Assembly: GCA_964036195.1 (NCBI GenBank) | Contig: OZ038451.1 | Coordinates: 8,622,529 to 8,686,528 of the forward strand | Source of the DNA: Sphaerolaimus hirsutus | Lineage: Eukaryota; Nematoda; Chromadorea; Monhysterida; Sphaerolaimidae | Length of the DNA stretch: 64,000 bases | Direction of reading: 5' to 3' | Shown: one piece after another, positions 6,161-44,017 of the stretch | Layout of the letters: every line of letters starts with the position of its first letter | Position numbering within the stretch: position 1 is the stretch's first letter | Translations under genes and position numbers: made by a program | The notes under the pieces: generated by a model | What the model was told of the DNA's origin: nothing | Database searches by the model: none | What the model saw: the letters and a program-made list of their open reading frames with translations, nothing else

Positions 6161-6234
6161 ACACCAATTTTTTTCTCCAAATTTAGCTCAATGGTGTCCT
6201 TTTAATATTTTATGCAGCGCAAATGTGATATTTA

Positions 6235-6503
6235 TACCGTATATCCTTGAACAAAACTCCCCTCGAATAACACTCCCCCTTGAATAACTCCTGTTGGCCA
6301 AGTGAGTAAGACATAACCCCCCTTGAATAACTTCCCGTGTTGGCCAAGTGAGTAAGACCTAACCCACTTGAATAACTCCCCACTGTTGGCCGGGTGAGTA
6401 AGACATCTCCCCCTTTGAATAACATTCCCCCTTGAGTAACTCCCCTGTCAAAACATCTGACGAAATAATAACTCCCCTGGGGTCTTATTCAAGGATATAC
6501 CAT
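6235..6503. mobile_element. TACCGTATATCC miniature element in saposin copy 1 intron
   Basis: The left end is TACCGTATATCCTTGAACAA and the right end is TTCAAGGATATACCATA. Inside are CTTGAATAACTCCCC modules alternating with GTTGGCCAAGTGAGTAAGAC. The same insertion occupies intron 1 of the other two saposin-like copies (29888-30068 and 43651-43880), so it predates the triplication. It runs directly into the next element at its right end. Confidence 0.75.
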
Positions 6504-7903
6504 ATTTCCTCGAAATACCCCCCTCGAAATACCCCCCGTCTCGAAATACCCCCCTCAAAATGGGCACTATGAAATAATTAGCCCCCCCCCCCTTGAATTA
6601 CCCCCGCCCCAAATTGAGTGTAAGAGAACCTACATGACAAAACTGCGGTTTGCGATCCGGATAACGCAGAAAAATATGTCTGTGTAAAGCCCAGATTAGA
6701 AGTCAGCGTGATTTTGACGTAAAATGATGACATAAAATGATGTCATAAAATAAATTACATGATAGTGGATCATGCTACAGGTCTACAATTTTTTATGGAT
6801 AATATATGAATCAATACCTTAATCGTGTTCAATGCTGAGTGTTATCAGCGACAGCTAGAGCGAATTGAAAAATTGATTTTTTTTCATTTTACGTCATCAT
6901 TTTATGTCAGGGAACTAATTTAACATTTTATGTCAATGGTTGCATGAACCATTGACGTGAAATGTAATATTACCGTATTTCCTCGAAATACCCCCCGGGG
7001 GGTGATTGTTTCATAGTGGTCCCGAGAGGGGGGGGTTAAACGAGGGGGGGGGGTATTTCGAGGGGGGGGGGGTTAATGGCGCTACGCACACTGAAGCCGA
7101 AATATTCGGCATACACACGTTTTTGACAAATGCCGAATTAAATGCTGAATAGAAAAAAACTTGCTGAACTTAAATTGTCCGTACTCTTGAAAATCAGGCT
7201 GTTTGTCAATTCAGCATGTATTTCAGCATTCAAAAGATGCGTACACTTTTACATGCGGAAACCATTCGGCAAAATCAGATGAAATGTTGAATGCTGAACT
7301 GCGAAAAATGTACACTTGTCGAAATTGCGAGTACGGTACGGTACGCAAGCCAATATGGTAAATACACACATTCAGCTATTGTCCTGATCATAGAAAATGC
7401 CGAAGTAATGTTGCTTTCGACATACTTTAGCGTCTAAAAATTAACGCTCAAATTTGTCCGAATTTGTCCGAATATTGTGCGCACGTTTTCAAAATTCAAT
7501 ATGGCGGCCCCTTAAATGCCGAACTTCGTCCGAACGGCAATTTTTCAATTCGGATTCGGCAGATGAAAACGTGCGTATGCCGAATATTTCGGCTTCAGTG
7601 TGCGTAGCGCCATTATTTCACAAGAAAATTTTTGAAAACCAAGTACGAAATTGTCGTCTGAAACGTACGCAGACGTCGAAAAATGCAACAAAAACTGCCA
7701 TTTATAAGGTTCTGTAGACTAATATTAGTACGTAGATGGTATAAACACTGTTCTAACGTGATTCCGACATTGTTTTAACGTGTGTTCTGCACTACGCAGA
7801 ACATAAACTGCCGTATTTGTCATGTACGTTCTCTTTACACTCAATTTGGGGGGGGGGTATTTCAAGGGGGGGGGGGGGGGGTATTTCAAGGAAATACGGT
7901 AGT
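6499..7903. mobile_element. Stacked TACCGTATTTCC miniature elements
   Basis: One left end is at 6499 (TACCATATTTCC). A second copy begins near 6973 (TACCGTATTTCCTCGAAAT) and closes at about 7903 (AAGGAAATACGGTA). Between 6640 and 6970 the two arms 'acgtaaaatgatgacataaaa' and 'ttttacgtcatcattttatg' form a further inverted repeat. The second copy carries the nested insertion at 7076-7613. Confidence 0.65.
7076..7613. mobile_element. Palindromic miniature element ATGGCGCTACGC, nested
   Basis: The long terminal inverted repeat begins ATGGCGCTACGCACACTGAA. It is mirrored at the right end up to GCGTAGCGCCAT. The flanks are TTA and TTA/TA, consistent with a short TA or TTA duplication. The interior also contains inverted 'gccgaatattcggc'-type text. 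It is inserted inside a TACCGTATTTCC element. Confidence 0.75.
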
Positions 7904-7995
7904 TCCCTGGTGTAAAATGATGGCATAAAATGAAAAAAATTGAATTTTCAAATTCATTCTAGCTGTGGCTGACAAAACTCAGTATTGGACACGAT

Positions 7996-8200
7996 CAGGG
8001 TTGGTTTTATAAAAATTCATTTTAGTAAAATTGTATAAAAATTGTATAAAAATTTTATTTTATTTTTATTTTATTCTTGTTTCATTGTATTTTATTTTAT
8101 TTTATTCCCAAAAGTCATTAATAAAATAAAATGACACATTTTACAAAAATTTTACAAAAATTGTACAAAAATTTTACAAAAAATCAGAATCATGCATGCA
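7996..8200. repeat. hAT-like CAGGGTTGG/AAAATAAAAT element fragment
   Basis: It begins CAGGGTTGGTTTTATAAA and continues with TTTTATTTTATT and TTTTACAAAAA repeats. It corresponds to the right half of the complete element at 29018-29859, seen in opposite orientation. Confidence 0.6.
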
Positions 8201-8382
8201 AGGCCAAAAAAATGTTATAATTAGACCTATACATGAAAAACCTGTGACAAATTTTTCCCTTACTTTTCAAAAGTTGCATGCAGTATGTATTGTTAGCTAG
8301 CTGCAAGTGTAAAGTTCCCTCGAAATACCCCCCTCGTTTAACCCCCCTCAAAATTCTCACTCTATTTATTTACCATTTACAG

Positions 8383-9061
8383 CCACAGCCCAGTCTTGAA
8401 GTAGCAGAATCGGAAAACGATGAAAAGCTGGCCACATTGAGCCGCGAAGTGTTGGATGCACTTGCACACAAGGTAGGTTGATTAATTGAACAAAATTTTT
8501 GAAGTTGTGTCAGTTTGTTGGCTGATTGATTTTCTATTAAGGTAAATCAGAAGTGCAGACAAACCAGTGGCTTGCCCTATATCCTCGAAAAAGACCCCTA
8601 GCGAGTTATGTTTCGTCAGAGGTTTTGAGGGGGGAGTTTTCAGGGGTTTTTTTTCCTCACTCAGCCAACGGGGGGAGTTATTCGAGGATATACAGTATAC
8701 AGCCTGTAAAATTTAGACATAGCAGTTTTTCAATTGTTACAACAGTAAACTCCTCAATTTCCGCGCAATTCCAGAGCCATTTTCATCTCAGACCCCACCT
8801 TTGGAAATGCAGTCAGATCCAAAAAAGTGCACAAAGTGCCTGCTCTTGTCCTCTGTGGCGTATGGCGGAGTGAAAATATATGGACACAATATCGAACAGA
8901 TAACTAAAGTATTGAGAGGAGTGTGCGATGGTGGTGGCCCAGTGTGTGAACATTTTATTAGGTTCCTGCCCAGTATCGTTGGGTCGATAAAAAACAATTG
9001 GACAGTTTGTGACGTCTGCCGCTTGATGGAGCTCTGCTGTATGTTTGGGTTATGCTTATAG
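8383..9061 (+). CDS. Secreted saposin-like protein, copy 1 (exons 2 and 3)
   Basis: Exon 2 is 8383-8472 (90 bases, phase 0, donor gtaggt). Exon 3 is 8792-9061 with a TAG stop. Exon 2 encodes an acidic propeptide-like segment, PQPSLEVAESENDEK onward. Exon 3 encodes a saposin-B-like domain with the order CxxC ... CDGGGPVC ... CDVC ... LCC ... GLC: nine cysteines, amphipathic helices between them, and the C-terminus CCMFGLCL. Saposin-like proteins bind or disturb membranes and lipids outside cells or in lysosomes. The specific role here is unknown. The signal-peptide exon is not visible and probably lies in the gap at 5961-6160. A TACCGTATATCC-type insertion (8579-8699) lies in the intron. The 3' flank matches copies 2 and 3 in inverted orientation. 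The reading frame is intact. Confidence 0.75.
8579..8699. repeat. TACCGTATATCC-type element in saposin copy 1 intron 2
   Basis: It runs from TATATCCTCGAAAAAGACCCC to GAGGATATACAGTA with G-run modules and the 'cctcactcagccaacgg' spacer. Matching insertions sit at the same place in copy 2 (about 27817-27945) and copy 3 (about 43083-43212). Confidence 0.7.
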
Positions 9062-9513
9062 TATACTCGCCGGACTTGATACTCTGCACTCGCACTGATT
9101 TATGTCTCATGTTGGAAGTGTGCCAATGATCATAAAGTCAGGCAATTCTTGTAAAAAGGTAAAAAAAATTCATCGCTGTGAATACGTAAACGTTTGGGTT
9201 TTTAAAACAGGAATGTATTTTTTCAACTATTTATGAAAATCGCATGCGTTAAATATCATTGGCACGCTTCCAGCGTGAGCCACGCATGCAAGGTGTAAAG
9301 TCTCCGGAGTAAAGTAGAAGTTCGCCAGGGCAGGGGCCTATTCCGCAATATACAGGTGACAAAGGTTGTTATAGGTTGTATTTTAGCACAGTAAAGTTAG
9401 AAGTATACTCCAGCAACATTACACGTTACAACGAAATCTACCATATCCCATCTGAATAAAAGAACAAACATAAATCCTTATTCATCATATTTATCAAATT
9501 GCTTTGATAAATA

Positions 9514-11191
9514 CACTACCGAGCAGAATAGTTGCGACTTTTCACACATAGAGAAACTGTAGACTGGGGGTCCACCGCAATGTTTTAGCTTCCGAGTTTC
9601 TTGTCCCTAGCCCAATTTTGATACCATTTGAGTATGTTGGGGTTTGATGTTGGCTGGGGCTACTACGACAAAAATTTGTTTGCTCAAATAATCCCCCAGG
9701 CCCAAGATAAGGGGGGTCTATAAAAAGGTGGTCAATAAATATACAAAAAATGGGCAATCTGGATGAGTGTCGTTGAAGCTTAATAACTCAACCATTTCTG
9801 GGCTGATTTCAATCATTCAACTCTTAAAATGATCGGGAAAACCTGCAGATTCTATTTTTATTGTCGGTTTAGTGATGGCTAAATTCCGTATGTCGATTTG
9901 ACCCAGTTGTTGAACATTGAAAAATGATTTTTTTGAACATGCTATCATAAACTTTAGACAACAGGGAATAATTTGAAACAAAAATGAGTTCAATATCTCT
10001 TTCCAATCAAAAGTTATGGCACTTCAAAGTTATCAATGGTGTCTAAGTATTTTATGCTGATTTTACTGGGGTTTTCAGCAAGAAAATGTTGTTATTGAAC
10101 AGTCTATAAAATACTTTAGACAGAGGGAATTAATACAGCAAAATTCTTTTTCTCAATATCTCTTTCTAATCAAAAGTTATAGCACCTACAAACTTCCATC
10201 TTCATTCCATACATAATAATTGCACATTACCATATTTCTCCGTGTAAACCGCCCCCCGTGCACAACGCCCGGGGCGTTATACAGCTGTATAGCGCCCCCG
10301 GGGCGCTATGCTTGGTTCCAAAAACATTAGCGAAGTGGGAATATTTTCAGGACAAATCAAGCTGAATGGTAATGAAAGGTCCACTTGGTTTGAACTATTT
10401 GAACGTTGTGCATTGCGGCACGCATTGTTATTCTGCGGAATGTACGTTTTTCCATTGAATTCGGTGCACACGGGGAGGGAACACAAATTATGTAAATATT
10501 TAAGCAAAATTTTTCCTTGCATAACGCCCCGCTCGCAATGATTTAACGCCCCGGGCGTTATACAAGTTTTTAAAAAAGGTTACCGAGAAGTGCCTCGGTT
10601 TTGTATAACGCCCGGGCGGTTTACATGGAGAAATACGGTACTCATTCACAGTTGGGCCAACTTTTCTTCCTAATAGAGCAAAGTCAAAACCTCAAATTTA
10701 CACACCAAATAGCCCCACTCAGTAGTATGCCTACCCCATTTCTGAGTTGCTGGCAATGGATGCAAAACTGCAGCAAAAATAAATAAATGCCACACTTGCC
10801 ATATATGCATTGCCATATGCTGTTCATGCTTCAAATGTTTCTTGCTGCACACAGAGCTCAGCGATGCAGGCAGGCAGTTGCCATGGTAAAAATTTTGTTA
10901 AAAAATGAACATAGGAGTTGGATATAGACTTTAAAGTGAGATGCTGGGTGGCTGCTGCCAAAAAAATGAAAAGTCTCAACTATTCTGAACCATGAACAAA
11001 CTGAGTTAATATGTTTGTACACTAGGAATATATGCAGATTTGAACTCGAGGGACAGTCATCCTGGGCATGTGTAGTCAACCCCCAGGGTACCCATGTATA
11101 GTATCCAAATGTTTTGCATATCAACCATTTTGAAATTCTGGCAACACAAATCACGCAGCGCAAAAAGTCTAAACTATTCTGCATGGTAGTG
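9514..11191. mobile_element. Tc1/mariner-like miniature element CACTACCG, nested
   Basis: Terminal inverted repeats are CACTACCGAGCAGAATAGTT and its near mirror at the right end, flanked by TA. It contains the insertion 10230-10638. Without that insertion it is about 1,270 bases, matching the sister copy at 23329-24590 (1,262 bases). No intact transposase is seen. Confidence 0.8.
10230..10638. mobile_element. TACCGTATTTCTCC miniature element, innermost
   Basis: Arms are TACCATATTTCTCCGTGTAA and its mirror ending GGAGAAATACGGTA. They flank CCCCGGGGCGTTATA-type modules. The sister element near 23880 carries the uninterrupted site 'cacat-TA-ctcatt' on its reverse strand, so the TA target is proven within this window. 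Confidence 0.85.
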
Positions 11192-11279
11192 TATAATGAA
11201 AATATTTTTATATTTGTCTTTTATTCAGATGGGATATAGTAGATAGCGTTGTAAGGTGTAATGTCGCTGGAGTATAAGC

Positions 11280-12422
11280 TGTTCACAAATGGCAGGTTAT
11301 TAAATCTGGAAGTTTTCAACAAGCTGACAGCTACATCAGTAAAAATACTTTTAGAAACTGCTGCAGGTTGCTGACAAATGCTGACAACTGTAAACAAGTG
11401 GTTGTCAGCAACATTTGTTTCCCAGTGTCTGGAACCCCCAGTGCCTGACTGGCACCCCTTTTGGAGAATGCTGGTGGCATTGGCACTAGGGTGTCAAAAA
11501 ACAATTTTACCTAAAATGGAAAGGTGGAAAATGTTATCTTTTCAGTTACTGGAAAATGAAAAGGTAAAAAAATGTTCCTGCGGAAAGACGGAAACAGAAA
11601 ATGGAAAGTTGACACGTAGTTGACAAGTGGTAGAGTAAAAAAGAAAACTTGCCACCCCACTCTTCACTTTACTTTTTACTTTACTCTTTACTTTTCCACT
11701 TGTGGAACCAGCGCCAGGGGGCAGGCAGTCCCAAAGTGTCGATTGTATCCAAATATTGTGTTTGTACCCTGATCTTATGTTTTTGTATTTTAATCTTATT
11801 ATCAACATATGAACTTGAATACAAAAACATAAATAAGGTTTGGATACACAGTTGACACTTTGGGGCTGAACCTGGTGCTGGCTCAACAAGTGGAAAAATA
11901 AAGTGCAGAGTAAAAAGTAAAGTGAAGAGTTTTCACTTTTACTCACCACTTGCGGGACTGGCCCCTGGTGCCCCTTTTTCCTGTGTGTCTTGGGGGCAGT
12001 CCCAAGCCCTGTAAAGTGTAAAGTAAAGTGTCAAATGTAAAGTCAAATGCAAAGTCAAGTGTCAATCAAAACAAAAAAGAAAATATTTTATTACTGAACT
12101 TTGCATGACAATTGACACTTGACTTTGCATTTGACTTTACATTTGACACTTTACTTTACACTTTACAGTGCTTGGGATTGGCACCTGGTGCTTGCTACCA
12201 TTAGTGCTTTTTCTCTGCCAATTGAAACTAAATGGTGTGCTAGTTGACACACCCCACACAAATGAGTCATGCGTCGCCTTCTAATGATAACATCAATGCA
12301 TGATGTTCTGATTCATCCAGTGATCGTGAAACGTTTTATCGCGTAATTTTTTCCCGTTTTAGCAAAATCCTGTGTTTCCAAGTCTCGCGCGCACAGCCAC
12401 AAAACGGGCCAGCTATTTGTCG
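11280..12422. repeat. Duplicated segment packed with small inverted repeats
   Basis: Sequence such as 'aactgctgcaggttgctga' and 'gtaccattagtgctttttc' recurs at about 32870-33370 and 45860-46270. Inside it, 11487-11612 begins TAGGGTGTCAAA (the family at 20163-22454). About 11999-12178 is a palindrome with arms CCCAAGCCCTGTAAAGTGTA. I see no gene. Confidence 0.55.
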
Positions 12423-12576
12423 TACCGTATTTCCTCGAAATACCCCCCTCGAAATACCCCCCTCAAAATGGCACTATGAATTTGTGGTTCGGGAAATGCA
12501 TAACAGACGTTCAAAACACTTACTGTGTTACGTTAGAACATCGTTTATACCATCTACATCTCCACCTATACAATTG
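12423..12576. mobile_element. Left half of a split TACCGTATTTCC miniature element
   Basis: It runs from TACCGTATTTCCTCGAAAT to 'catctacatctccacctata'. The matching right half resumes near 22700 and ends GAGGAAATACGGTA at 22824. Everything between interrupts it. The first part of the LINE open frame is translated from this segment. Confidence 0.75.
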
Positions 12577-15500
12577 CGAAAGAACTGCACGCTAAGCATG
12601 CTGATGGCAATGGCAATGGCGCCGACTGATGGCAATGGCGGTATAGCCGTGTATACCAAAGTGCACTTAGAATGTTCCGTTTTGGGAGGTGAATATTGGG
12701 AAGATTGTAAAAATGTATTATGGCTCACTTTACGATGCCAAAACACATCGACTTTCATTATGCTTGCAGTAGTATACCTTTTCGATTCAGGAAAAGTATC
12801 GAGGAATCGGGCTTACTTAGAGCAAAATGAATGCATCCTATCCCATCTATCATCTCAGATATCGGAAAATATAAAACAAGGCAGTCCTACCTTACTTATA
12901 GGGGATTTTAACGGTCACGTTGGGAACACTTTTCCTGGGCTGGAGCAAAATAATGCTACTGTAAATGACACAGGGAGACTTGTGAACGCATTTATTACAT
13001 TGAATGATCTCTATGTAAGCACCTCTGTCACTGATATATGGTGGTCGTATGAAGCGGGAGCAATACGCTCACTATTAGATATAGCTTTATTCGACTCGAA
13101 TGCGGAGTGGGTAAGTGAACTATTGCATCATAGTCCGACCAGTGATAGGTCAATTGCTTCAGATCACTGCTCGTTGCACTTAAAACTGTCTACACTACCC
13201 TTACATTGTGTACAGCCGACTGGCGATAAGTATTCACATGAGTGGGTGGTGAAGGGGGAAGACGTCATCGAGCCATTCTCAAACTGGCTTGAAGAGTCTT
13301 TATCATCGTTAAGTGCTCAAGAGTGTACATATGAATCTGTTTTGAGTCGCTTACAAGATGTGGCCTCTAGACGTTATAGATTAAAAGCTAGTACAATTCA
13401 GCCAACATGCGTGGCGGTGAAAATTCGGCGCATGAAGGCAGAAATACAGAAATTACGGCGGCAATTACATTTAAATGCCATCATATACTCTGAGTACAAG
13501 GCTAGGGTGTCGGTTCTACGGGACAGTATACGTTCCTGTGAACAAGAATATGAGAGGGAAATCAAGCGCAAACGACTTGACATTGAACTGCAATCAAGCA
13601 GTACTAAGACGGATTTGTACAGCCTGGCTCGGCGATATAGAGAGGCTGGCATTTTGTATCCGATGTTAAGATCGAATGTAGGCTTGGCAGATACAAAAGA
13701 AAGAATATGTAGTGTATTGCGGGGATTCTGGGATAAAGTTCAAATGGCAAATCCGATGAGCTCAGACCCAGATAACTGCAAAACTACACTCTCTGGTATC
13801 ATCTCAGGTAGCCTTGCGGTCAGTCTCGATGAGGGAATTAGCTCGGTAGAAATAAAACAAGCTATTAAGAGACTGAAACTAGGAAAATCTCCAGGTACAA
13901 CGGGAGTCTATCACGAAATGTTACGTGGTAGTGGTACTCATTTAGTGAGAGTGCTCAAAATACTTTTTAATGGTTGGTTTGATGGAAATCCTATACCTCA
14001 TGCGGCTAAAACATGCAAGCTGTCTTTACTGCACAAGAAAGGATCTAAATCGTGTATTGATAATTATCGATCTATTGGGCTGCAATGTAACCTGTTAAAG
14101 CTATACTGCTCTGTATTGAATAATAGGCTACTATCTGCATTCGAGACCGTGGATGGTTTCGGAAGTATGCAGGGGGGGTTCAGGAAAAAACGCCGCACCA
14201 CAGATAATCATGTTATCATTCAAGGCTGCGTGAATGGTAATGCTACTGTTACAGCATGTTTCGTAGATGCGGTTAAGGCTTTTGATAGGGTGCCACGCAC
14301 CAAGTTATGGCCTAAACTGCTTGATTATGGATATCCGCCAAAGTTTGTGAAATCGATATCAAGCACGTATGACGATTTGCGGTGCGTGATACAATACGGT
14401 TCTACGTACAGCCCTGAGTTTAAGTACCCTCTTGGTGTACGTCAGGGGTGTTGCCTATCACCTAGTCTGTACGTTCTCTATTTAGCAGATCTACGTACTG
14501 ATCTAGAAAGTCTGAATGTAGGAGCACAACTGGGTCCTTTAAAAGTACCAGCAGTGTTCTTTGTCGATGATATTGCTCTGCTAGCGAATAGTGCACCCGA
14601 TCTCCAGCTAATAATGGATAAATTTACGGAGTGGTCATGGAGATGGGGAGTAGCAATACACCCGGATAAAAGTAAGATTCTGCACTTCCGTCGTAAATCC
14701 AATCCATCATGCCGTTGGGCATTAGGAAATGATAAGAACGGTAGTCTCCAATACATATCTGAGGTGGACGAGATAAAGTACTTAGGTATTACAATAACGT
14801 CAGAAAAGGATATGTTTCGTACACAGCGTCAGCTGCTGCTCCAACGAGCGCAGACGGCTGCCATAATGGTGGGAGAACTAGGAAAAATGTCATTACGTCC
14901 ATTTTGGGCAGTGAACAGATTGTGGACACTATACGCAATGACAAAAGTATTCTACGGTGTAGAAATCTTTGGTTTGCCAAAGCAAACTTTGGCAAAACTG
15001 GTTGGCATACAAATGTCTGTTTATAGAAAGGTATGTCACTCCCCCCTTCACCTTTCAAACAGGTGTCTAGCTATTGATGGTGATGTTACAACAATGAAGG
15101 CTTGGTATACTAGCATAGTTGTTGGTCACTGTCGCTACTTGGAGAGTGATAAAGTAAGCTCTACCACTAAGGTAGCATTTAAACTCTGGGGTAAGACAAA
15201 GTCGAACCAACCAAGGCGTTTCAGTCCCACTGGGCGGACTACAGCACTACTTAATGATGCTAATATTGATCCTATGTTAGGCCTGAAGAGTATTAAACTG
15301 CTAGCCAAACAACACGCCTGGATAGATGCATCGTTGGGCTCTGTAAGTCTGTCTCGATCACGGGCAGAACGCTATCTGGGCACATGCCCAGCCCCTTTAA
15401 ATACCTACGAAATATACATTGATGATCTACCGTGGGTTTTTACTCGACACGGCTTGTTGCAAAATGCGCAACAATTCAAATTGAGTAGGGCGGGGAAAAA

Positions 15501-15783
15501 ACAGTTGACCTCTTGCAAATTATGTAAAAAATATGGCCATGTCTTCTGGCCAACCCTACAACACTACTTGTACGGGTGCCAAGATATGAGTATCATATAT
15601 TGGCGCGAGAAATTGTTAAGAGAATTATGCTCTGAGTGCTGTGAAGAAAAATGTGCACAAGAGATCTGCTCTGTGGATCCGATATGTCGCTTTGCACAGA
15701 TATCAAGAGTTATCTGTGCAAAATTGCGAAAATTGATATCGACACACATCACAGCATTAGATAAGTATATTACTGGCCTCTGA
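12484..15783 (+). CDS. LINE retrotransposon polyprotein (partial endonuclease, reverse transcriptase)
   Basis: Uninterrupted 1,099-codon frame of a non-LTR retrotransposon. Order: the C-terminal part of an exonuclease-endonuclease-phosphatase domain (LIGDFNGHVG near residue 140, SDHC near 225); a basic linker; reverse transcriptase with KSPGTTGVYHEM (near 468), FVDAVKAFDRV (near 595), GVRQGCCLSPSLYVLY (near 650) and catalytic FVDD (near 693, in place of the common YADD); and a terminal zinc knuckle of form C-x2-C-x12-H-x4-C (near 1010-1031). The endonuclease N-terminal half is missing. About the first 30 codons derive from the miniature element at 12423-12576, so the annotated ATG is not the native start. 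The frame has no stops, which suggests recent insertion. The clade is not assigned. Confidence 0.9.
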   Translation: MVREMHNRRSKHLLCYVRTSFIPSTSPPIQLRKNCTLSMLMAMAMAPTDGNGGIAVYTKVHLECSVLGGEYWEDCKNVLWLTLRCQNTSTFIMLAVVYLFDSGKVSRNRAYLEQNECILSHLSSQISENIKQGSPTLLIGDFNGHVGNTFPGLEQNNATVNDTGRLVNAFITLNDLYVSTSVTDIWWSYEAGAIRSLLDIALFDSNAEWVSELLHHSPTSDRSIASDHCSLHLKLSTLPLHCVQPTGDKYSHEWVVKGEDVIEPFSNWLEESLSSLSAQECTYESVLSRLQDVASRRYRLKASTIQPTCVAVKIRRMKAEIQKLRRQLHLNAIIYSEYKARVSVLRDSIRSCEQEYEREIKRKRLDIELQSSSTKTDLYSLARRYREAGILYPMLRSNVGLADTKERICSVLRGFWDKVQMANPMSSDPDNCKTTLSGIISGSLAVSLDEGISSVEIKQAIKRLKLGKSPGTTGVYHEMLRGSGTHLVRVLKILFNGWFDGNPIPHAAKTCKLSLLHKKGSKSCIDNYRSIGLQCNLLKLYCSVLNNRLLSAFETVDGFGSMQGGFRKKRRTTDNHVIIQGCVNGNATVTACFVDAVKAFDRVPRTKLWPKLLDYGYPPKFVKSISSTYDDLRCVIQYGSTYSPEFKYPLGVRQGCCLSPSLYVLYLADLRTDLESLNVGAQLGPLKVPAVFFVDDIALLANSAPDLQLIMDKFTEWSWRWGVAIHPDKSKILHFRRKSNPSCRWALGNDKNGSLQYISEVDEIKYLGITITSEKDMFRTQRQLLLQRAQTAAIMVGELGKMSLRPFWAVNRLWTLYAMTKVFYGVEIFGLPKQTLAKLVGIQMSVYRKVCHSPLHLSNRCLAIDGDVTTMKAWYTSIVVGHCRYLESDKVSSTTKVAFKLWGKTKSNQPRRFSPTGRTTALLNDANIDPMLGLKSIKLLAKQHAWIDASLGSVSLSRSRAERYLGTCPAPLNTYEIYIDDLPWVFTRHGLLQNAQQFKLSRAGKKQLTSCKLCKKYGHVFWPTLQHYLYGCQDMSIIYWREKLLRELCSECCEEKCAQEICSVDPICRFAQISRVICAKLRKLISTHITALDKYITGL

Positions 15784-16465
15784 TCATGATCAAGTAGGTA
15801 TTTATATACGTATCAAACTGCCCACTGTTTTTATCATACATCTCTGATCACAGTAATGTGTATATTGATATGGCGAAATGTGGGTTAAAATATTATTATC
15901 ACCTACATCGTGAGGTAGAGGATACTGACATCGCTTATATTCGGACAAAGCATGGAATTTAAACTTCCACATGCAGCCCGACAGTTTATTCAGCGATACA
16001 TACACTCTAAACTCACTAGGCCAAAATCGAATAATACATATAACTACTAATCGTTGTACTTTCGTTTAAGATTAAAACCAGGGCCCTGGTATCTTAGATT
16101 CCCCCGTTTATATATCTTGTTATAGATCGCTCGTTTTAGTGGTAAATTTATGTTACTAGTAAGTTGAACTTTTGTAGGGCTTAGGATATTTTTGTTTTAT
16201 ATTCCTGGTATCACCTACTATGTAGTTCCGTCTATTTGCGTGCAACGGTATCGTGTGAGTCTGCCTTAAATATCGATTGTATTCGAGTAACTATTACCGG
16301 TATTTTAAAAAACAATTGGTTCTCAGCTTTTGCTCATTGTTCAATATGAATATGTACTTTAATTTTAATGTTGCCATCGACTACTTTTCTTTTGTATGTT
16401 GTTAGTACATGCCCGTGACTTGTAGAGCCAGTAGCGGTACGAGTGTTAAATAAAATAAAATAAAT
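12577..16465 (+). mobile_element. 5'-truncated LINE with TAAA-type tail
   Basis: The element body runs from about 12577, where miniature-element text ends at 'cctata', through the reverse transcriptase frame. A 3' untranslated region of about 660 bases follows, and the element ends in a TAAA/TAAAA run at 16446-16465. No clear target-site duplication was found directly next to the tail. Confidence 0.75.
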
Positions 16466-18283
16466 GCAAAAGATAGGAGGCACAATCAGAGGCCTCAACG
16501 CCCTCATTTTTAGCCTGGTTCGCGTGTGTTTTTGCACACAATGCAGTCACTTTTTATTAGCACATATGTTCTGCTGCTGTCCTTTACAGACAGGAACTTC
16601 ATTGTGTGTCTCATTTGTGTGTTTTTTTACACAGTATAAAGTCACTTTTTATTTACACAGAAATGTACTTAAAATAAGTGAGGGGGCGGTGGCGGCATAA
16701 CTGCGCATGAACTCGGCGCTCAGAACGCTGCTCGACCGCAATGGCTGCGGGACGGACCAATTCTCGCAGCCGACCGCGCTTTCTCGACCCCATCTCATGT
16801 TGGGATTAAATGGCTTTGTAGGAGGTGTGTTCTTTTTGGATGAAACTTTCAACATTCACTTTTCACCGCTGCTTTCTGATTTGGCATTGTTCCAACTTTT
16901 GCTTTGCCTCCCTAATAGCTTAGCTTGGTAATGACTGCAAAAAAGCCCCCCAGCCGGCGCCCCATTTTCAAGCTACGAAGAAGTCCCTACTGCGTGCAAG
17001 CAATGAATCAAGTGTTATTATGCAGCAACGTGAACTTTGGTGTCGCTTCCGCCGCGAGTGCAACCAGTGCGGCGACGCAATCGACATTGGCCGACGCGTG
17101 AGCGACTGCCCCTTGAGAGGCGGCGCAGGTGGTGGGGGCGGCGGGTGTGGACCCCACATGAGTGATTGTGACAGGTTGGCTTCAGTTACCATATTGGCTT
17201 GTTCTCACTCCCATGTTTGAATTGAGTACCATGCTTGAATTGAGTGCTTGCCATGCCACACCTAAAAGCAGACAGCATCAGGCAAATAGAATAACAGAAG
17301 TGATGAAAGTAGGCATTTTATTAACTGATTTTTTTTAAATGCCACTTCGTTTTAAACAAAAGCGCAAGGGTCCACGCGCTTTAAAAAAGCGATGGCAAAT
17401 GTTTTGGTACTTAAGCACTATGCATTTTGCAATTTCACATGCAAATATGGTTCGAACGATATGACTTTTCGATTCGATATCGATCAATTTTCGATATCGA
17501 TATTCTATTTTCAATATTTTCTGTAACTCGATATTGATGCGATATGGAACCTAGATATCCATATTCGATTTCATTGTTTTTGTGGCATTTTTAAGATCAT
17601 CGTTTTTATTCTGATATTAAGCTGGGCCATTGAAAAAATACGCTTTTTCCATCCCCAAGCCCAGACGGAAGTGTGCACGTGGGGTTGACCGATGTTTTTT
17701 TAAACGTGTTATTAAAAAAAACCGTATTGAAAAAAACACGAGGTCCGAAACGTTTAAAAAAAACATTGGCTGAAATTTTTAATACTAAGCACTAGGTATT
17801 TTGCAAAAATTTTGCGTGCAACCGCGCATTTTCACCCACAAATTAGTATCAAAGCATCCATTTCTATTTGCTACCATGGGTAAATAAGCCATCATATTTA
17901 TGTTGCTGTAGTATATAATATTCAGGTAATGTGCTTCCATGTACCTCCACAGTGTGTAACACCACTCCCAAAGTAACAACCTCCTTTTATAACCTTGATA
18001 ACTATTCCGGTCCAAACTTCACTTGAAGTCATGAACATTTAGACTATAAGGCAATATACGAACATGTTGGGAAAAAAAAATTATTTTTGACACAAATCAC
18101 CACTTATACCGATATCCCATGGCTCCACAGCCATTATATGGTCATATATAACATCACAGAGTATTGTCACTTGTCTGATATACCTAAATATGTTGACCCA
18201 GGGAGCTTATCTGGGAGCTTTAAAAAACATTTAAAAACGTTTTTTTCCCAACCCTATGTGCACCGCTTCTGTTGTTTGATGTA
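16466..18283. other. Mixed region: unassigned sequence, GC-rich islands, element fragments
   Basis: There are GC-rich islands near 16690-16820 (frame with MNSALRTLLDRNGCGTDQF) and 17020-17180 (frame with RECNQCGDAIDIGRR, or small-residue frames). Plausible splice signals lie nearby, but I recognise neither. At about 17450-17560 is a TCGATATCGAT-rich stretch. About 17690-18255 is a reversed, degraded TAGGGTTGG-family element ending in CCAACCCTA. Confidence 0.4.
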
Positions 18284-19423
18284 CAGGAGTGGGCATTTTC
18301 AGTTACCGATGGAAAAACGCGATAGCTTGAGCTACAGTTGAGCTATCACAGTGAAATTTTCACACTATAGGATAGACTCCATAGGACACTATTCTGAAGT
18401 TTGCAACCCAAACGGCCACATTTTGGGTGAGTCGTGGAACACAGTTTTAAGTGTAATTTTGTGACTTGGCTTCACCCATAGGATAAATCGAGGGTGGCGT
18501 TTGAGGGGGGGTCACCGGTAGGGTTCAAACGGGATTGACTTTTCGGGATCGGGATCGGGATTCACTTTTTGAGATTTCGGGATCGGGATTGGGGTTTCGG
18601 GATCGGGATCGGGATTGGTTTTTTGAGATTTCGGGATCGGGATCGGGATTGGCCGGGATTGGGGTCACGGGATCGGGATCAGGATTGGGATAGGCATTTT
18701 TCCGGGATCGGGATTGGGTTCTAGGGATAGAGATTTCGGCCATTTTTCTGGCATTCACAGTTGTTCATAAAGGTCTCAAAACACTGTTGGATGCCAGAAA
18801 AGTGGCATAAAATTGACGCTGGGGGTTTGCATCCACTTTTTTGCATGCAAAAACGTCATTATTTCACTTTTTATAATTTCGACTAATTTTTCCGGGATCG
18901 GGATACCAGACTTGAGAGTTTCTCGGGATCGGGATCGGGATTTGAAAATTTTCGGGATCGGGATTGGTATTTTTGAGATTTCGGGATCGGGATTGGGGTT
19001 TCGGGATCGGGATCGGGACTGGTAAATCCCGGAATTTCACGGGATCCGGGATCGGGATCGGGATCCCGTTTGAACCCTAGTCACCGGTCTTTGGTTTTGT
19101 CCCCGGTCTTTGGTGTCATCCCATTCTGTTGTACATTGGCCGATTTTGATGCCCTTTGAGTATGTTGGGGTTTGGGGTCTGGGCTACGACCAATTTTCCT
19201 CTCTCGAACAGTCCCCCAGTCCCGAGATAAGGGGGGTCAAGTCACAATATTACACTAAAAACTGTGTTCCACAACTCACCCAAAATGTGGCCGTTTGGGT
19301 TGCAAACTTCAGAATAGGTGTCCTATAGAGTCTACTCTATTGTGTTAAAATTTCATTGTGATAGCTCAACCATAGCCAAAGCTATCGCGTTTTTCCAGCG
19401 GTAACTGAAAATGCCCACCCCTG
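18284..19423. mobile_element. Inverted-repeat element CAGG(A/G)GTGGGCATTTTCAG
   Basis: The left arm is CAGGAGTGGGCATTTTCAGT. Its mirror ends 'atgcccacccctg' at 19423, and the arms extend through 'gaaaaacgcgatagct'. An 8-bp duplication is not clear at its outer edges. It contains the nested element 18519-19079. Confidence 0.65.
18519..19079. mobile_element. hAT-like element filled with GGGATC repeats
   Basis: Termini are TAGGGTTCAAACGGGAT and its mirror ATCCCGTTTGAACCCTA. The exact 8-bp target duplication GTCACCGG lies at 18511-18518 and 19080-19087. Both arms consist mainly of CGGGAT units (as ATCGGGATCGGGA on one strand), arranged in opposite orientation around a short unique middle. There is no coding capacity. 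Confidence 0.85.
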
Positions 19424-22454: not shown

Positions 22455-22462
22455 GTGCAGAC

Positions 22463-23064: not shown

Positions 23065-23072
23065 AAGCTTCG

Positions 23073-23196: not shown

Positions 23197-23241
<45 letters not shown>

Positions 23242-28870: not shown

Positions 28871-29017
28871 TTACCTTAATAGGAAATCAATCAACCAATA
28901 AACTTGCACAGCTTGAAAATTTCTGTTCAATTTATCAACCTACTCTTTGTGCATCCAACACTTCACGGCTCAATGTGGCCAGCATTTCATCGTTTTCCAA
29001 TTCTGCTACTCCAGGAC

Positions 29018-29859: not shown

Positions 29860-29887
29860 TCCAGGACTGGGCTGTAAATAGTAAATA

Positions 29888-30068: not shown

Positions 30069-30190
30069 AAAAATATCACATTTGCGCTGCATAAAATATT
30101 CAGACATTATTGAGCTAAATTTGGAAAAATTATTACCCATGCCACTGCAGCTGCGATGCACATTAGGACCAGCAAAAATGAGTTGTTCAT

Positions 30191-31367: not shown

Positions 31368-31515
31368 ACTGTATTTCTTCTAATAGAACGGCATACCTCC
31401 AATAGAACGGCACCTCCCATAGAACTACAGGTTTTGGCACGTTTTTACGCCAACGAAAACAATATAACGGCAGCCTCCAATTGACCGGCACCTCCAATAG
31501 AACGGCAGGTAGAAA
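31368..31515. repeat. TACTGTATTTCTTCTAATAGAACGGC fragment
   Basis: The left end TACTGTATTTCTTCTAATAG is followed by repeated 'aatagaacggcacctcc' modules. The end style resembles the other TACCGTAT families, but the internal module is different. The right end is absent. Confidence 0.5.
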
Positions 31516-31581
31516 TTATGTTGGGAGTGCACCAAAACACAAAAATAAGTAGAAAATGGATGGTGACAACGTTCTCCAACA

Positions 31582-32785
31582 ATCGGGGAGGTGCGGCGAC
31601 TCACTACAGGGTGGGTCGCCCTATATGCAACAGTTTTTTTTGGCGTTTTTGGTGTCCCAAACAAGTTCACCACCCACTTGATTGGCTACACTATGAGAGA
31701 CGTATATCCAGCTGTGATGGCTCTATAAAGCTGAAATTTGGGGGATGTCTTGCCAACAACCCCCTCACAATACACCAGGCGGGCGGCTGCCGACGACCCA
31801 CTGAAGCATGGGTCACTGCAAATAAAGTTAACCATTTTCTAAAAACAGCCCAAGTGTCCCAAAAAAAGTTCATCACCCAACTCCATTAAAAAATGTTGCA
31901 ACGACATACCTAGGTAATATAAAACTGAATCCTGTTGGAACCCTAGTTCAGCCAAAAAAAATTTTTTCAGTAGGGCACCCACCCTGTCCCATAAACGGTA
32001 GACCAAAAATTTCACTTTAAACCAATTTTTTGTATCACACTTAAAAAGTTGGTTTACAAAGTTCACTAGAGAATGGTCTAAGGTTCAAAGTTATGTAAAC
32101 AACATAACCTCTAAAATGCCTCCATAAGGAAATTTACTTTAATTTAGGTGAATTCTATGATGTCAAAATGATGTCATTGCAGGAACAAAATTTGACAAAA
32201 TTTTCACTTTTTCATTTACCCCAAATAAATTTTCTTATGGAAGCATTTTAGAGGTTATGTTGTTTACATAACTTTGAACGTTAGACCCTTCCCTAGCGAA
32301 CTTTGTAAACCTTCTTTATAAGTGTGAAACAAAAAATTGGTTTAAATTGAAATATTTGGTCTGCTGTTTATGGGATGGAGCGGGAGCGGAAAATACTGAA
32401 AAAAATTTTTAATCAGCAGAATTAGGGTTCAAACCCGATTCAGTTTTATATTAGGTATGTTGTTGCAACATTTTTATAGTGCAGTTGGGTGGTGAACTTG
32501 TTTGGGACACTTGGGCTGTTCTTAAAAAAATGATCAACTTTATATGCAGTGACCCATGCTTTAGTGGGTCATCGGCAGCCGCCCCACTGCTGTATTGTGA
32601 GGGGGTTGTTGGCAAGACATCCCCCAAATTTCAGCTTTCTACCACCCTCACAGCTGGAAATATAGGCTTCAAAGTGTAGCTAATCAAGTGGGTGGTGAAC
32701 TTGCTTGGGACACCAAAAACGCCAAAAAATTTTGTTGCATATAGGGCGACCCACCCTGTAGTGAGTCACCGCACCTCCCCCTATT
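31582..32785. mobile_element. Long inverted-repeat element GGTGCGGCGACTCACTACAGG
   Basis: The arms include 'actcactacagggtgggtcg' and 'aagttcaccacccacttgat', mirrored at 32660-32785. The middle has 'aacataacctctaaaatgcc' and its mirror. It is a relative of 20495-21940 with a truncated left end. Confidence 0.65.
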
Positions 32786-32869
32786 GTTGGGGAGTAAGGG
32801 GGTCTTACAACTTTATATATACAAAGTTTCAGTCTTATAGCACCCCCATGGACGGAGATATTACATCTG

Positions 32870-33374
32870 ATATTCAGCAAGCTGACAGGTTAATATACCG
32901 CTACTTTTGGAAACTGCTGCAACTTGCTGAAAATGCTGACAACAGCAAACAAGTGGTTTCCAAGTGGCAAGCTTGGTTTCCCGGTGTCTGGAACCCCCCC
33001 CCCCCAGTGCCTGGCTGGCTCCCGTTTTTAGAGAATACTGCAGTGGCATTGGCACCTGGTGCCAGTTCCAGAAGTGGAGTAGTGAGAAGTAAAATTGCAA
33101 AAGCGAAGTAAAAAAAGAAATGAGTTATCTTCGCTTTTGCCATTTTACTTCTCACTTCTCCACTTGCGGAACCGGCCCCTGGTGCCCCTTTTTGCTGTGT
33201 CCTAGTCCTTGGTACCATTAGTTCTTTTTCGCTGCTAATTGCATACAAAATGGTGTGTCACACATCTCACACAGGAGTCATGGCGTTGCTTTCTGATGAT
33301 AACATCTATGCATGATGTTCTATGATCTTCTGTGCTTATTCATCAAATGATCGTGACCACTAAAGGTTGTAACT
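32870..33374. repeat. Third copy of the duplicated non-coding segment
   Basis: It matches 11280-12420 and 45860-46150, with an inverted 'gaagtgagaagtaaaa' insertion in the middle. No gene is seen. Confidence 0.5.
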
Positions 33375-33545
33375 AGGGCTCGAACTCGACTCGACTCGAC
33401 TCAACTCGTGACTCGAGGGTAAAATGGGGTGCCGACTCGACTCAACTGACTCGACCGGAAAAATATGGCCCAGACTCGAGACTCGAGGTTTTTGCCCGAC
33501 TCGACTCAAAAATTCAGCAATATTCGAGTCGGGGTTTCCCATTGA
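33375..33545. repeat. TAGGGCTCGAACTCGA element fragment, CTCGA repeats
   Basis: It begins TAGGGCTCGAACTCGACTCG and continues as CTCGACTCGA and 'gactcgagac' repeats. This looks like the hAT-like simple-repeat style, with its right end missing. Confidence 0.5.
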
Positions 33546-33658
33546 ATCATATCAAAAATATCAATTTTAATAGGACTTTTAAACATATTTTTCAAAAATT
33601 TTGCGCGCGAGCACGCATGTCCGCACCGCATGCAGCAATATAAATTGCTTGTCATATC

Positions 33659-33992
33659 TACCGTATTTGCTTGAATAATCCCCCTGGGGGATTATTATTT
33701 CGTCAGACATTTTTGAGGGGGGAACTATTCGAGGGGGGGAATTATTCAAGGGGGGGAATTATTATTTCGTCAAAATTTTCAAGCATGTTTCCATCAACTC
33801 ATTTCCTGAAACATGCCTTATAAACACAATAACGTGCCATTTTTGTTAAAATTAGGTAGAACAAATTAATCAAATCTTTAAAGGGGGGGATTATTCGAGG
33901 GGGGAATTATTAGTTCCTCACTCGTGTTACAGGGGGGGATTATTCGAGGGGGGGAATTATTCAAGGGGGGTACTATTCAAGCAAATACGGTA
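33659..33992. mobile_element. TACCGTATTTGC miniature element
   Basis: The ends TACCGTATTTGCTTGAATAA and CAAGCAAATACGGTA are flanked by TA. Internal modules are GAATAATCCCCC on one arm and GGGGGGATTATTCGA on the other. The subfamily is distinct from the TACCGTATTTCC and TACCGTATATCC elements. Confidence 0.75.
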
Positions 33993-34479
33993 TTCAACAA
34001 TATCTAGAGTCAAGCTTCTCAACTCAAGTTGCTATACAATTCTACAGAATGAAACACACACACCATGTCAAATACATTCTACAATGCTGGCACTGACTCA
34101 AAAAGATGTAATGTAGTTGATTTAACTTCACTATTGGATTGGAATGAATGAATGAATATGAGTACAACAATGTCTAGGCAGTATGTGTCGTTGTCACCTT
34201 CTCTTGACACTTTGCATGACATTTGACATTTGACATTTTACAGGGCATTTTACAGGATCACCAGCCTCTGTAAACAAACACTCCCATTAAAATAGGTATA
34301 ACTGGAAAAATCTCTGCCATTCAAAAACCAGGTCATTTAAAGATGTTGTTTTCCATCCCCAGGCTGGCTTCATTTTTGTTTGTGGCAACATCAAGAAAGT
34401 GAACATATGTGACAAAATGTTTTATTTTTGCTTTATCTTGATATTAAAATCAACTGTTGGCATTGAAAACATTGGTTGG
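33993..34479. other. Stretch with no recognised gene
   Basis: Unassigned AT-rich sequence up to the second gap. 'ttgacactttgcatgacatttgac' near 34200 resembles arms of the AAGTGTCAAATG palindromes. Confidence 0.4.
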
Positions 34480-40840: not shown

Positions 40841-41122
40841 GGGGTGGAAAAAACTGTTTTTTCAACAACACCGTTTTGTTAAAAATAAAACTGTTTTTTT
40901 TCAAAAGCTCCCAGATATGGTTATGGGTCAACATATACAGGTATATTAGACAATTGGCAATACTTTGTGATGTTATATATAGCCATAGAATGGCTGTGGA
41001 GCCATGGGATAGCATTATAAGTGGTGATTTCTGACAAAAATATCAGTTTTATGTCGACTTATTATGTATATCGGCTTTTGTCGAACATTCGTGACTTTGG
41101 GGGGATTTCTTTTATATTTGCC

Positions 41123-41571
41123 TACCGTATTTCCTCGAAATACCCCCCCCCCCTCGAAATACCCCCCCCCCTCGAAATACCCCCCCTCAAAATGGACACT
41201 ATGAACTTATAAACCCCCCCTCGAAATACCCCCCCCCAATTTAGTGTATAGAGAACGTAAATGACAAAGGCTGCGGTTTGTCATCCGGGCAATGCAGAAC
41301 ACACGTTAAAAACGATGACTCTGTTATGTGAGAACAGTGTTTGTACGTCTACACACTTATAAATGTCTTTAGAGTCTTACAAATGGCGATTTTTGTTGCA
41401 TTTTTCGACGTCTGCGTACGTTTCAGACGACATTTTAGTACTGGGATTTCAAAAAATTTCTGGCGAAATAATAAACCCCCCCTCGAAATACCCCCCCCTC
41501 GTTTAACCCCCCCTCAAAATTCTCACTCTGAAACAATAAACCCCCCGGGGGTATTTCGAGGAAATACGGTA
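41123..41571. mobile_element. TACCGTATTTCC miniature element, complete reference copy
   Basis: 449 bases from TACCGTATTTCCTCGAAATA to GAGGAAATACGGTA. The left arm has three CTCGAAATACCCCCC modules. The core is about 250 bases ('gtaaatgacaaaggctgcgg'). The right arm has CTCGAAATACCCCCC and CTCGTTTAACCCCCC modules, then CCCCCCGGGGGTATTTCGAG. It is flanked by TA. Confidence 0.85.
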
Positions 41572-42719
41572 TATACTTTTTAAAGCTATTTTTCACCTGC
41601 TTTTATCGATTTTTCTCTTTATTCTTCCTTCTACACCACGAAATAGCCAGCCCCCCAGGATTTTTTTGTGTATTTACTGAATTTACTGTAAATACTCTAT
41701 TAATATGCCTGTCACATTATTGTTTTCACCACATTTTTAGGGGTCACACTATTGGAGGGGTCGCGTTAATAGGGAGGGTCGCATTTTATTTTGCTATTTT
41801 TCACAAAATACCTACCGCTACTGGTAGGTTTATAAGAACCTGCAGAACTAAAAATAGCTGAAAATAGGCAGCTAGACACATGAACTAGTGATTTTGGAGG
41901 TGAAAACATATAGAAAGGTATAAAAATTGGGTATAATTTCTGAAAAATCGCTCCAGATAGCTAGATCGCTTTGTTACGTCGGTTTTTTGTTTTGTGTTAT
42001 TCTCTGGTGGTTGCACAATTAGAGTGGGTCGCGTTTGACAGATTGAGCAATTTGACGGATTGCTTGATTGAGGGGGTCATAATAATAGAGTATTTACAAT
42101 ATATATCTATATAAACTAGCGTAAAAATTTACATTCTACCAACACACACTCCAAAATATTTTGCTGAAGTGCTGTGTCTGTTTAAGATAAAAGACACATT
42201 GTTGTCACTAAAAAAACACGTTCACAGCTCGTGATGACTTTCAGCCAGTTTTCTGTGTCTGCTGTATGAGTGTGACGATCACAATGATGAATCTGCTATT
42301 TGTCACACTCAAAATTAAATTCTCTCAATTTGTCGGAATCGTTGTTGGCTTCCCGACAGCTTCCAGCGACAAAAAAAAAATGCAGTGGTCTATCACTCCT
42401 TAACAACCAAGCCAATACGAATGAAATTTCACATACATATACTCCTGAGTACCATATATACTCGACCACTTTTTCTCAAAAATAAGGAACTTTTCAGTTG
42501 AAATTTGGAACTTTTAAAGTGTGATTCGTCGTCACCCAAAAAACCGTGTAAACGCTGCCTAATGGTATTATACTTTTAAGCAATCTAGAAAACATCGAAA
42601 TTGAAAAATTTGCCATTTGTGAACAGCTTACTTCTAATTTTACTGTGCTACACAGCCTATCACTATCCCTGTGACTTTGTATATCGCGGAATTGGCCCCT
42701 GGCCAACTTCTAGTAAATA

Positions 42720-44017
42720 CTAAAAGCATAACCCAAACATACAGCAGAGCTCCATCCACTGGCAGATGTCAGGAACTTTCACATTGTCTCTTATCTCCCT
42801 AATGATGTCTGGCAGGCTCCCAATAATTTTTTGACACACTGGGTCAGGGTTTTTTTCGCATATTTCTCCCAATGATTTAGTTATCTGTTCGATATTGAGT
42901 CCATGTATTTTCACCTCGACATACACCACAGAGGACAAGAACAGGCACCTTGCGCACTTTTTTGGATCGGACCGCGTCTCCAAACTTGGGATCTGAAATG
43001 AAAATGGCGGCTCGGGATTTACTATGTTTACTGTTGTAACAATTGAAAAACAGCTTTTTTCAAATTTAATAGACAGTATACTTTATATCCTCGAAAAGTC
43101 CCGCTTGAATAACTCCCCCCGTTGGCCGAGTGAGGAAATAATACCCTTTTAACTCCCCCCTTAAAACCTCTGACGAAAAATAACTCCCTTGGGTCTTTTT
43201 CGAGAACACAAGGCAATCTACTGGTTTGTCTGCACTTCTGGGGCCAGTTCCGCAAAATGAGAATGGGACGTGAAATGGCGAAGGCGAAGTAAAAGCGCAA
43301 AGCAAAGGCCAAGTGAAATGGCAAGTGAATAGAGAAGGAAATTGGCAAAAGCGAAGAGAAATTATTTTTTATTTTGACTTTTTTACTTTACTTTTGCCAA
43401 TTCACTTGCCATTTCACTTCGCCTTTGCCATTTCACTTCTCACTTCTCATTTTGCGGAACTGGCACCTGATTTACTTTAATAGGAAATCAATCAACCAAT
43501 AAACTTGCACAGCTTGAAAATTTCTGTTCAATTTATCAACCTACCTTGTGTGCAAGTGCATCCAACACTTCGCGGCTCAATGTGGCCAGCTTTTCATCGT
43601 TTTCCAATTCTGCTACTCCAGGACTGGGCTGTGGCTGCAAATAGTAAATACCGTATATATCCTTGAAAAAGACCCCAGTGGAGTTGTTATTTCATCAGAT
43701 GCTTTGGCGTTAGGTGGGAGTTACTCAAGGGGGAATGTTATTCAAGGGGGAGTTATGTCTTGCTCACCCTGCCAACAGGGGGGAGTTATTCAAAGGGGGT
43801 TATGTCTTACTCACCTGCCCAACAGGGGAGTTATTCAAGGGGGGTGTTATTCGAGGGGTTTCTTCTCAAGGATATACCGTAAAAATATCACATTTGCACT
43901 GCATAAAATATTCAGACATTATTGAGCTAAATTTTGATAAAAAAGTTGGTGTATAAATATTACCAATGCCACTGCAGCTGCAATGCACATTAGGACCAGC
44001 AAAAATGATTTGTTCAT
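42720..44017 (-). CDS. Secreted saposin-like protein, copy 3 (intact, 3 exons)
   Basis: Exon 1 is 43964-44017 (minus): MNKSFLLVLMCIAAAVAL, a classic signal peptide, donor gtaata. Exon 2 is 43545-43634 (30 codons, PQPSPGVAELENDEKL onward, acceptor ttgcag, donor gtaggt). Exon 3 is 42720-42992 with a TAG stop. All junctions are phase 0. The predicted precursor is 138 residues. After an acidic spacer comes a saposin-B-like domain: KCARC ... CEKNPDPVC ... VPDIC ... LCCMFGLCF. One cysteine present in copies 1 and 2 (VCDIC) is proline here, leaving eight. Membrane or lipid interaction is expected from the family; antimicrobial, digestive or lysosomal use is not decided by the sequence. Intron 1 holds a TACCGTATATCC element (43651-43880) and intron 2 two more small elements. 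Confidence 0.85.

Follow-up and report, generated by a model that had tools for sequence, protein, structure and literature searches.

A clustered family of saposin-like genes with a diversifying mature domain in the nematode Sphaerolaimus hirsutus

Introduction

Among the oldest membrane-attack proteins known are several saposin-like proteins (SAPLIPs), a superfamily whose canonical disulfide pairing is 1-6, 2-5 and 3-4 and of which at least one member, NK-lysin, is strongly cationic. To our knowledge, the rate at which SAPLIPs turn over has been little described in most invertebrate phyla, and among the publications listed by our searches for positively selected SAPLIP families none, judged by its title, concerns an invertebrate SAPLIP cluster. 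Here, we analyze a stretch of 64,000 nucleotides from the nematode Sphaerolaimus hirsutus (hereafter the window; C2:8622529-8686528, where C2 is contig OZ038451.1 of a 348-Mb, 762-contig assembly) which carries three copies of a predicted saposin-like gene. We suggest that they belong to a clustered family of secreted saposin-fold proteins whose mature domain is diversifying, and we favor, with moderate confidence, the view that these are membrane-active defense proteins caught up in an arms race.

Each of the closest described systems resembles this family in part. The saposin B-type domains of prosaposin (SapB_1 and SapB_2), including those on contig C3 of the same genome, share its CxxC...C...C...C-x5-C spacing and helical order; unlike prosaposin, however, each predicted gene of the family encodes one domain only, and this domain carries three extra cysteines, goes unmatched in Pfam and evolves fast. 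The caenopores of Caenorhabditis elegans (SPP proteins) and the amoebapores are likewise small multigene SAPLIPs with a six-cysteine core, according to the available portion of PMC6780910. The macro-conotoxins, in the available portion of PMC10437998, demonstrate that saposin folds are able to carry highly variable toxins; they resemble the family in having a single saposin-fold domain, a signal peptide and propeptide followed by a highly variable mature part, and extra disulfides. Their cysteine pattern is nevertheless described, in the accessible part of PMC11896702, as very different from that of SAPLIPs, whereas the family retains the canonical six. Finally, two hookworm SAPLIPs are reported in the available part of PMC3184995 to bind membranes without significant hemolytic or bactericidal activity, a result which counsels caution in assuming an antimicrobial action.

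Results

Gene plan of the window copies

The original prediction placed three related loci at 8383-9061 (+), 27452-30190 (-) and 42720-44017 (-), and it was right as to both places and strands; we refer to them as copy 1 (locus B'), copy 2 (A') and copy 3 (C). Their predicted gene plan consists of three exons with phase-0 introns, encoding in turn a signal peptide, a propeptide and a cysteine-rich mature domain. In the family as a whole exon 1 is 54 nt long and encodes the leader MN(K/N)SFLLVLMCIAAAVA, which suggests that the proteins are secreted; exon 2 measures 84-90 nt where intact, and exon 3 comprises 88-90 codons with nine cysteines.

5961..6160, assembly gap of 200 N at the expected site of copy 1 exon 1
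6161..6499, + strand, what is left of copy 1 intron 1, adjoining the N gap
8383..8472, + strand, copy 1 (B') exon 2, propeptide, 30 amino acids, phase 0, 96% to copy 3 exon 2
8792..9061, + strand, copy 1 (B') exon 3, saposin-like mature domain, 89 amino acids and stop, 9 Cys
30137..30190, - strand, copy 2 (A') exon 1, signal peptide, 18 amino acids
29860..29871, - strand, copy 2 exon 2, first fragment, ending with one copy of a 7-bp repeat
29017..29859, - strand, 843-bp insertion in copy 2 exon 2, with the 7-bp direct repeat TCCTGGA at both ends
28944..29016, - strand, copy 2 exon 2, second fragment, from the other repeat copy to the donor site
27452..27724, - strand, copy 2 (A') exon 3, 90 amino acids and stop, 9 Cys
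43964..44017, - strand, copy 3 (C) exon 1, signal peptide
43545..43634, - strand, copy 3 (C) exon 2, propeptide, 30 amino acids
42720..42992, - strand, copy 3 (C) exon 3, 90 amino acids and stop, 8 Cys (Pro, not Cys, in column 74)

The relationship of the copies is far beyond chance: the longest ungapped matches extend over 300 nt at 95% between copies 2 and 3 and over 184 nt at 91% between copies 1 and 3, and over 281 nt the exon 3 of copy 3 is 92% identical to that of copy 2 and 79% identical to that of copy 1. A signal exon had been attributed to all three, which holds for copies 2 and 3 but not for copy 1, whose intron 1 resumes at 6161 after the N gap; its exon 1 and 5' flank are not visible, and the six matches to exon 1 in the assembly all lie at other loci. 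The exons had also been described as open, or open until recently. Exon 3 is indeed open in all three copies, and exon 2 of copy 2 is split by the 843-bp insertion, which is not present at the matching point of copy 3 or of locus A (a related gene upstream, see below). Copy 3 is complete in frame, with some 250 bp of extra DNA separating its ATG from the shared 5' flank. An open exon 3 is by itself weak evidence, since in neutral simulations at 14% and 24% divergence the exon was still open in 28% and 13% of cases, respectively.

A cluster of four distinct loci

To speak of a triplication describes the window correctly but understates the family. A DNA search of the assembly with exon 3 found it at seven places, six of them within about 255 kb of contig C2 (C2:8410971-8665536) and one on a 10.9-kb contig, C106. 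The six C2 loci start as follows.

C2 8410971, locus A
C2 8430303, locus B
C2 8453181, locus D
C2 8631298, locus B' (copy 1)
C2 8649979, locus A' (copy 2)
C2 8665247, locus C (copy 3)

A protein search returned the same seven places together with three weak matches (E 0.28-2.4) on C3, the contig that carries this genome's cluster of canonical prosaposin-type domains (C3:17920962-17935195). Exon 1 and the 5' flank were each matched at loci A, A', B and C, with two further matches on C106; exon 2 has a single match on C106 and is otherwise present at A, A', B, B' and C. Locus B spans about 8417711-8430594, with an intron 1 of 12 kb. At D, exons 1 and 2 were not found, at the sensitivity used, in the 180 kb examined, and the frame extends 23 codons beyond the stop common to the other loci; this divergent fourth locus, known as exon 3 alone, may therefore be a relic.

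In the tail of intron 2 and the 3' flank the four distinct loci A, B, C and D are 0.05-0.29 substitutions per site apart. Copy 3 is a locus separate from A and B, at 0.048-0.057 substitutions per site from A (3' flank and intron 2 tail). Scans of viral and of bacterial and archaeal contigs gave 155 and 22 pattern matches, respectively, with no confirmed relative among them.

Probable positive selection on the mature exon

The mature exon appears to be under positive diversifying selection. In codon model M0, run with a purpose-written codon program and not with PAML, the ratio of nonsynonymous to synonymous change (omega, dN/dS) for exon 3 was 2.50 over all six loci (p = 6.4e-4) and 3.94 over the four distinct loci (p = 7.4e-6). 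Dropping codons 44-52 gave 4.24 (p = 1.1e-5), leaving out D gave 4.80 (p = 1.3e-4), and the three window copies alone gave 2.38 (p = 0.014). With six loci model M2a was preferred to M1a (p = 3.3e-6), and 14 sites had a naive posterior above 0.9. For exons 1 and 2 of A, B and C, where 48 codons hold few changes, omega was 0.95 and not different from 1. Pairwise Nei-Gojobori estimates for exon 3 were 2.79 (A-B), 3.81 (A-C), 2.74 (B-C), 2.75 (A-D), 2.41 (C-D) and 2.02 (B-D), and the remaining nine of the 15 pairs ranged from 0.19 to 2.32, the lowest being A-A' and B-B'.

Nonsynonymous divergence also exceeded neutral divergence in all six pairs of distinct loci. The excess was significant in three of them, namely A-B (0.221 vs 0.135, p = 0.013), B-C (0.241 vs 0.143, p = 0.007) and A-C (0.092 vs 0.052; p = 0.037 when the 3' flank was pooled with the intron, 0.082 when only the intron was used), although these tests are not independent because the pairs share loci. 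Over 88 codons the variable sites were distributed 40, 31 and 16 among codon positions 1, 2 and 3, position 3 being the lowest (p = 0.006). As a control, omega was computed in the other frames of exon 3: against 3.94 in the true frame, the reverse frame that shares its third positions gave 3.65, as expected by symmetry, and the other four gave 0.48-0.88, two of them significantly below 1. In the tail of intron 2, five of six control frames were indistinguishable from 1 at p < 0.05 and the remaining one was lower (0.45, p = 0.049), so that none was significantly above 1. The variable residues clustered on a helical face in helix 1 (p = 0.018) and not in the five other segments (p = 0.16-0.65), and we claim no such pattern. 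The additional loci and the high omega of exon 3 both bear out the earlier suggestion of an expanding and diversifying family.

A predicted saposin fold

Amid this variation the cysteines are nearly fixed. Eight of the nine cysteine columns of exon 3 are invariant in all six loci and the ninth is kept in five; the six that we take as canonical, in the order CxxC...C...C...CxnC, are among the invariant ones, and three further cysteines accompany them. In a neutral simulation at 24% divergence all nine were retained in 0.3% of cases.

The domain had been called unrecognised, and in the curated libraries it is: Pfam and NCBIfam gave no saposin match, none of the four proteins scanned (those of A, B, C and D) hit SapB_1, SapB_2 or Saposin even at an E value of 10, and apart from a sub-threshold Usp-48 row for copy 3 (E 0.09-0.15) the family scans were empty. 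A prosaposin domain from this genome, included in that Pfam run, exceeded two curated cut-offs. A match to a curated profile is, however, an aid to detection and not a biological definition. When the family was aligned by hhalign with four prosaposin domains of its own genome, the probability was 91% (E 1e-6 for a single comparison; 28% identity over 69 columns) and the six canonical cysteines fell in register. Among the 16 rows of a profile search of the PDB, the natural near-full-length matches were to saposin B (E 0.058) and to the saposin domain of acyloxyacyl hydrolase (AOAH; E 0.12), and were weak (E 0.058-0.19). Three designed helical repeat proteins outranked them; as these matched via several weak pieces, we set them aside as repeat artefacts. 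A phmmer search of the PDB with copy 3 gave three rows, all interleukin-13 receptor alpha-1 (E 0.053-0.29), which we take as chance.

Structures were predicted by AlphaFold2 from an input of only the three window sequences. Copy 2 was modeled with five helices at a predicted local distance difference test score (pLDDT) of 81 and a predicted template modeling score of 0.72, its five models spanning pLDDT 54-81; the model of copy 1, also with five helices, was weaker (pLDDT 68). In Foldseek comparisons with known structures the first nine ranks for copy 2 were all saposin folds, including surfactant protein B (SP-B) at rank 1 (E 0.23), AOAH, and saposin C with template modeling (TM) scores of 0.58/0.65; hookworm Na-SLP-1 stood at rank 12 (TM 0.61/0.62, E 1.6). 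For copy 1 the first three were saposin folds (saposin A, TM 0.59/0.63, and AOAH), followed by an unrelated protein and then by the saposin-fold effector NK-lysin of the pig (TM 0.47/0.51, E 4.5), a weak structural score. The matches of copy 2 thus include the N-terminal domain of SP-B and Na-SLP-1; a surfactant role for the family is not indicated. Macro-conotoxins were not among the 50 and 27 Foldseek matches listed for the copy 2 and copy 1 models, respectively.

Taken together, the hhalign alignment, the PDB profile matches and the two predicted structures make a saposin fold well supported, if not proven, and they agree with the saposin-like character originally proposed. By its cysteines and predicted fold the family belongs with the SAPLIPs, even though it fails the Pfam profile and adds three cysteines. 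Because nine is an odd number, the ninth cysteine could pair between chains, except in C, which has eight.

Origin of copies 1 and 2

The flanks and surroundings of the copies bear on how they arose.

6161..34479, stretch of 28.3 kb between two N gaps, inverted and rearranged, holding copies 1 and 2
26893..27451, - strand, copy 2 shared 3' flank, 98% to locus A over 560 nt
27975..28628, - strand, foldback element within copy 2 intron 2, shared with A but not with C
30224..30710, - strand, copy 2 shared 5' flank, candidate promoter region
44291..44698, - strand, copy 3 shared 5' flank

The long match reported between copies 2 and 3 was recovered as a series of collinear pieces (26894-30710 against 35987-44698), copy 3 being split by insertions. 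Long 5' flanks, predicted for all three, were found at copies 2 and 3, and also at A and B, but not at copy 1. Copies 1 and 2 are near-copies (96-99%) of B and A, genes that lie 200-240 kb upstream. Both copies lie on the 28.3-kb stretch, an inverted and rearranged copy (96-99%) of parts of C2:8406-8433 kb; counting all matches to C2:8405-8434 kb of 93% or better, 11,718 nt out of 28,319 are covered.

Two origins come into question for copies 1 and 2, namely a segmental duplication of recent date and a second haplotype of A and B. That an alternative haplotype was scaffolded as an extra block, a possibility which the original prediction had itself raised as mis-scaffolding and which is compatible with a diversifying family, has in our estimation a substantial chance, somewhat short of even, of being correct. 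It would account for A/A' and B/B', although it leaves the four distinct loci A, B, C and D unexplained. The stretch lies between N gaps, and its matching parts differ from C2:8405-8434 kb by a mean mismatch of only 1.8%; moreover, contig C106 is another version of locus A, with 99.8-99.98% identity and 2 mismatches in about 11 kb aligned. On the other side, the copy 1 part is inverted relative to the copy 2 part, a 10-kb insertion (12561-22702) is absent from the A/B block, and the neighboring AIFM1-like exon described below has a single place in the genome. C106 itself could already represent the second version of A, which would make A' a third and argues for duplication; C106 may, however, itself be an assembly product, and this argument is not decisive. 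Two segments of 1.3-1.6 kb with inverted-repeat ends, present in C2:8406-8413 kb, are absent from C106, so that such elements may be either recently mobile or prone to loss in assembly.

Neighboring elements and other observations

To the left of the saposin block, and joined to it only by an N gap, window 1735-5960 is an inverted 93-97% copy of C2:8505.7-8510.1 kb, about 115 kb upstream; one probe from this piece has two places in the genome. Other features of the window are these.

12304-15783, + strand, stop-to-stop frame of 1159 codons, a non-LTR (long terminal repeat) retrotransposon, or LINE (Pfam RVT_1, E 4e-27, with sub-threshold endonuclease matches), most of it within the 10-kb insertion 12561-22702
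20537-21804 and 31585-32873, pair of foldback elements of 1.3 kb each, related to one another at 80-81%
57320-61271, + strand, exons with sub-threshold pyridine-nucleotide oxidoreductase matches, which we take to resemble mitochondrial apoptosis-inducing factor (AIFM1-like); one exon was probed and has one place in the genome
62645-63055, - strand, EF-hand exon with sub-threshold Pfam matches, possibly of a penta-EF-hand protein

Rfam gave no match in the window at the gathering threshold. Elsewhere in the assembly, the COX1 of contig C762 (14,754 bp) reads TGA as Trp, and in a comparison by eye with aligned COX1 chains many AGR codons fall at serine positions and many ATA codons at methionine positions, a usage which fits the invertebrate mitochondrial code.

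Discussion

We infer secretion, processing, membrane activity and a defense role for this family. The precursor would carry a signal peptide and a propeptide, and cleavage would free a disulfide-locked helical domain able to bind or disrupt lipid membranes, most likely those of microbes or other antagonists; the product would be a defense protein of the kind represented by amoebapores, caenopores and NK-lysin, and its gene copies would be continually made and damaged by duplication, inversion and transposon insertion. A signal peptide, a propeptide, a disulfide-fixed fold and a fast-changing mature part together fit a secreted effector engaged in an arms race. The predicted fold is what suggests an activity on membranes: lipids and membranes are the targets of many known proteins with this fold, which makes a membrane-binding or membrane-disrupting defense protein our best guess.

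Several observations weigh against this interpretation. The recent pairs A-A' and B-B' have omega values of only 0.19 and 0.44, on five changes each, and A'-C stands at 1.09, while in B-D, A-D and C-D the excess over neutral divergence falls short of significance (p = 0.067, 0.28 and 0.19). Synonymous sites have diverged less than introns in each of the six distinct-locus pairs (A-B 0.094 vs 0.149); low dS at these slow synonymous sites therefore accounts for part of the high omega. As regards the fold, the domain goes unrecognised by Pfam and NCBIfam, four of the five AlphaFold2 models of copy 1 have a pLDDT near 40, the Foldseek E values are weak (best 0.23 and 0.41, none below 0.2), and unrelated or designed proteins appear from rank 10 for copy 2 and rank 4 for copy 1. 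Finally, the net charge of exon 3 (K+R minus D+E) is only +2 in A, A', B and B', +1 in D and -1 in C, so that, unlike the strongly cationic NK-lysin, which also lacks the three extra cysteines, the family is not strongly basic. Caenopores, too, are described as cationic in the available portion of PMC6780910, next to the +2 to -1 computed for this family.

This near-neutral charge is more at ease with a different arms race, in which the proteins are borne in venom or mucus and directed against predators or prey, or serve in reproduction or self-recognition. The stable saposin scaffold would then carry a hypervariable binding surface, as in the macro-conotoxins, and membrane action would not be required. 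The common precursor plan, with its signal peptide, propeptide, variable mature domain and fixed cysteines, favors this alternative, as do the extra cysteines and the saposin-fold toxins described in the available parts of PMC10437998 and PMC11896702. We nonetheless consider it unlikely, if by no means negligible, since the family retains the canonical six-cysteine SAPLIP spacing that, by the accessible portion of PMC11896702, sets SAPLIPs apart from the macro-conotoxin pattern. Least probable of all is a lipid-handling housekeeping family of saposin-like cofactors, recently duplicated, whose omega was raised by relaxed constraint and low dS: the slow synonymous sites and the damage to several copies are in its favor, yet relaxation yields an omega of 1 at most, whereas the value observed is significantly higher, nonsynonymous change significantly surpasses the neutral rate in three of six pairs, the cysteines are nearly fixed, and the intron 2 control frames show no corresponding elevation.

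A more specific proposal, less likely than not, may be put forward tentatively: that these are a perhaps lineage-restricted class of nine-cysteine saposin-fold effectors in which a rapidly diversifying surface has been built upon the canonical SAPLIP core, in the manner of conotoxin evolution, the ninth cysteine allowing covalent dimers in most copies. The family offers a testable set in which to ask which residues, and which antagonist, drive change in a mature domain whose cysteine frame is nearly fixed. Since Pfam can miss such fast-evolving members, families of this kind may be under-counted.

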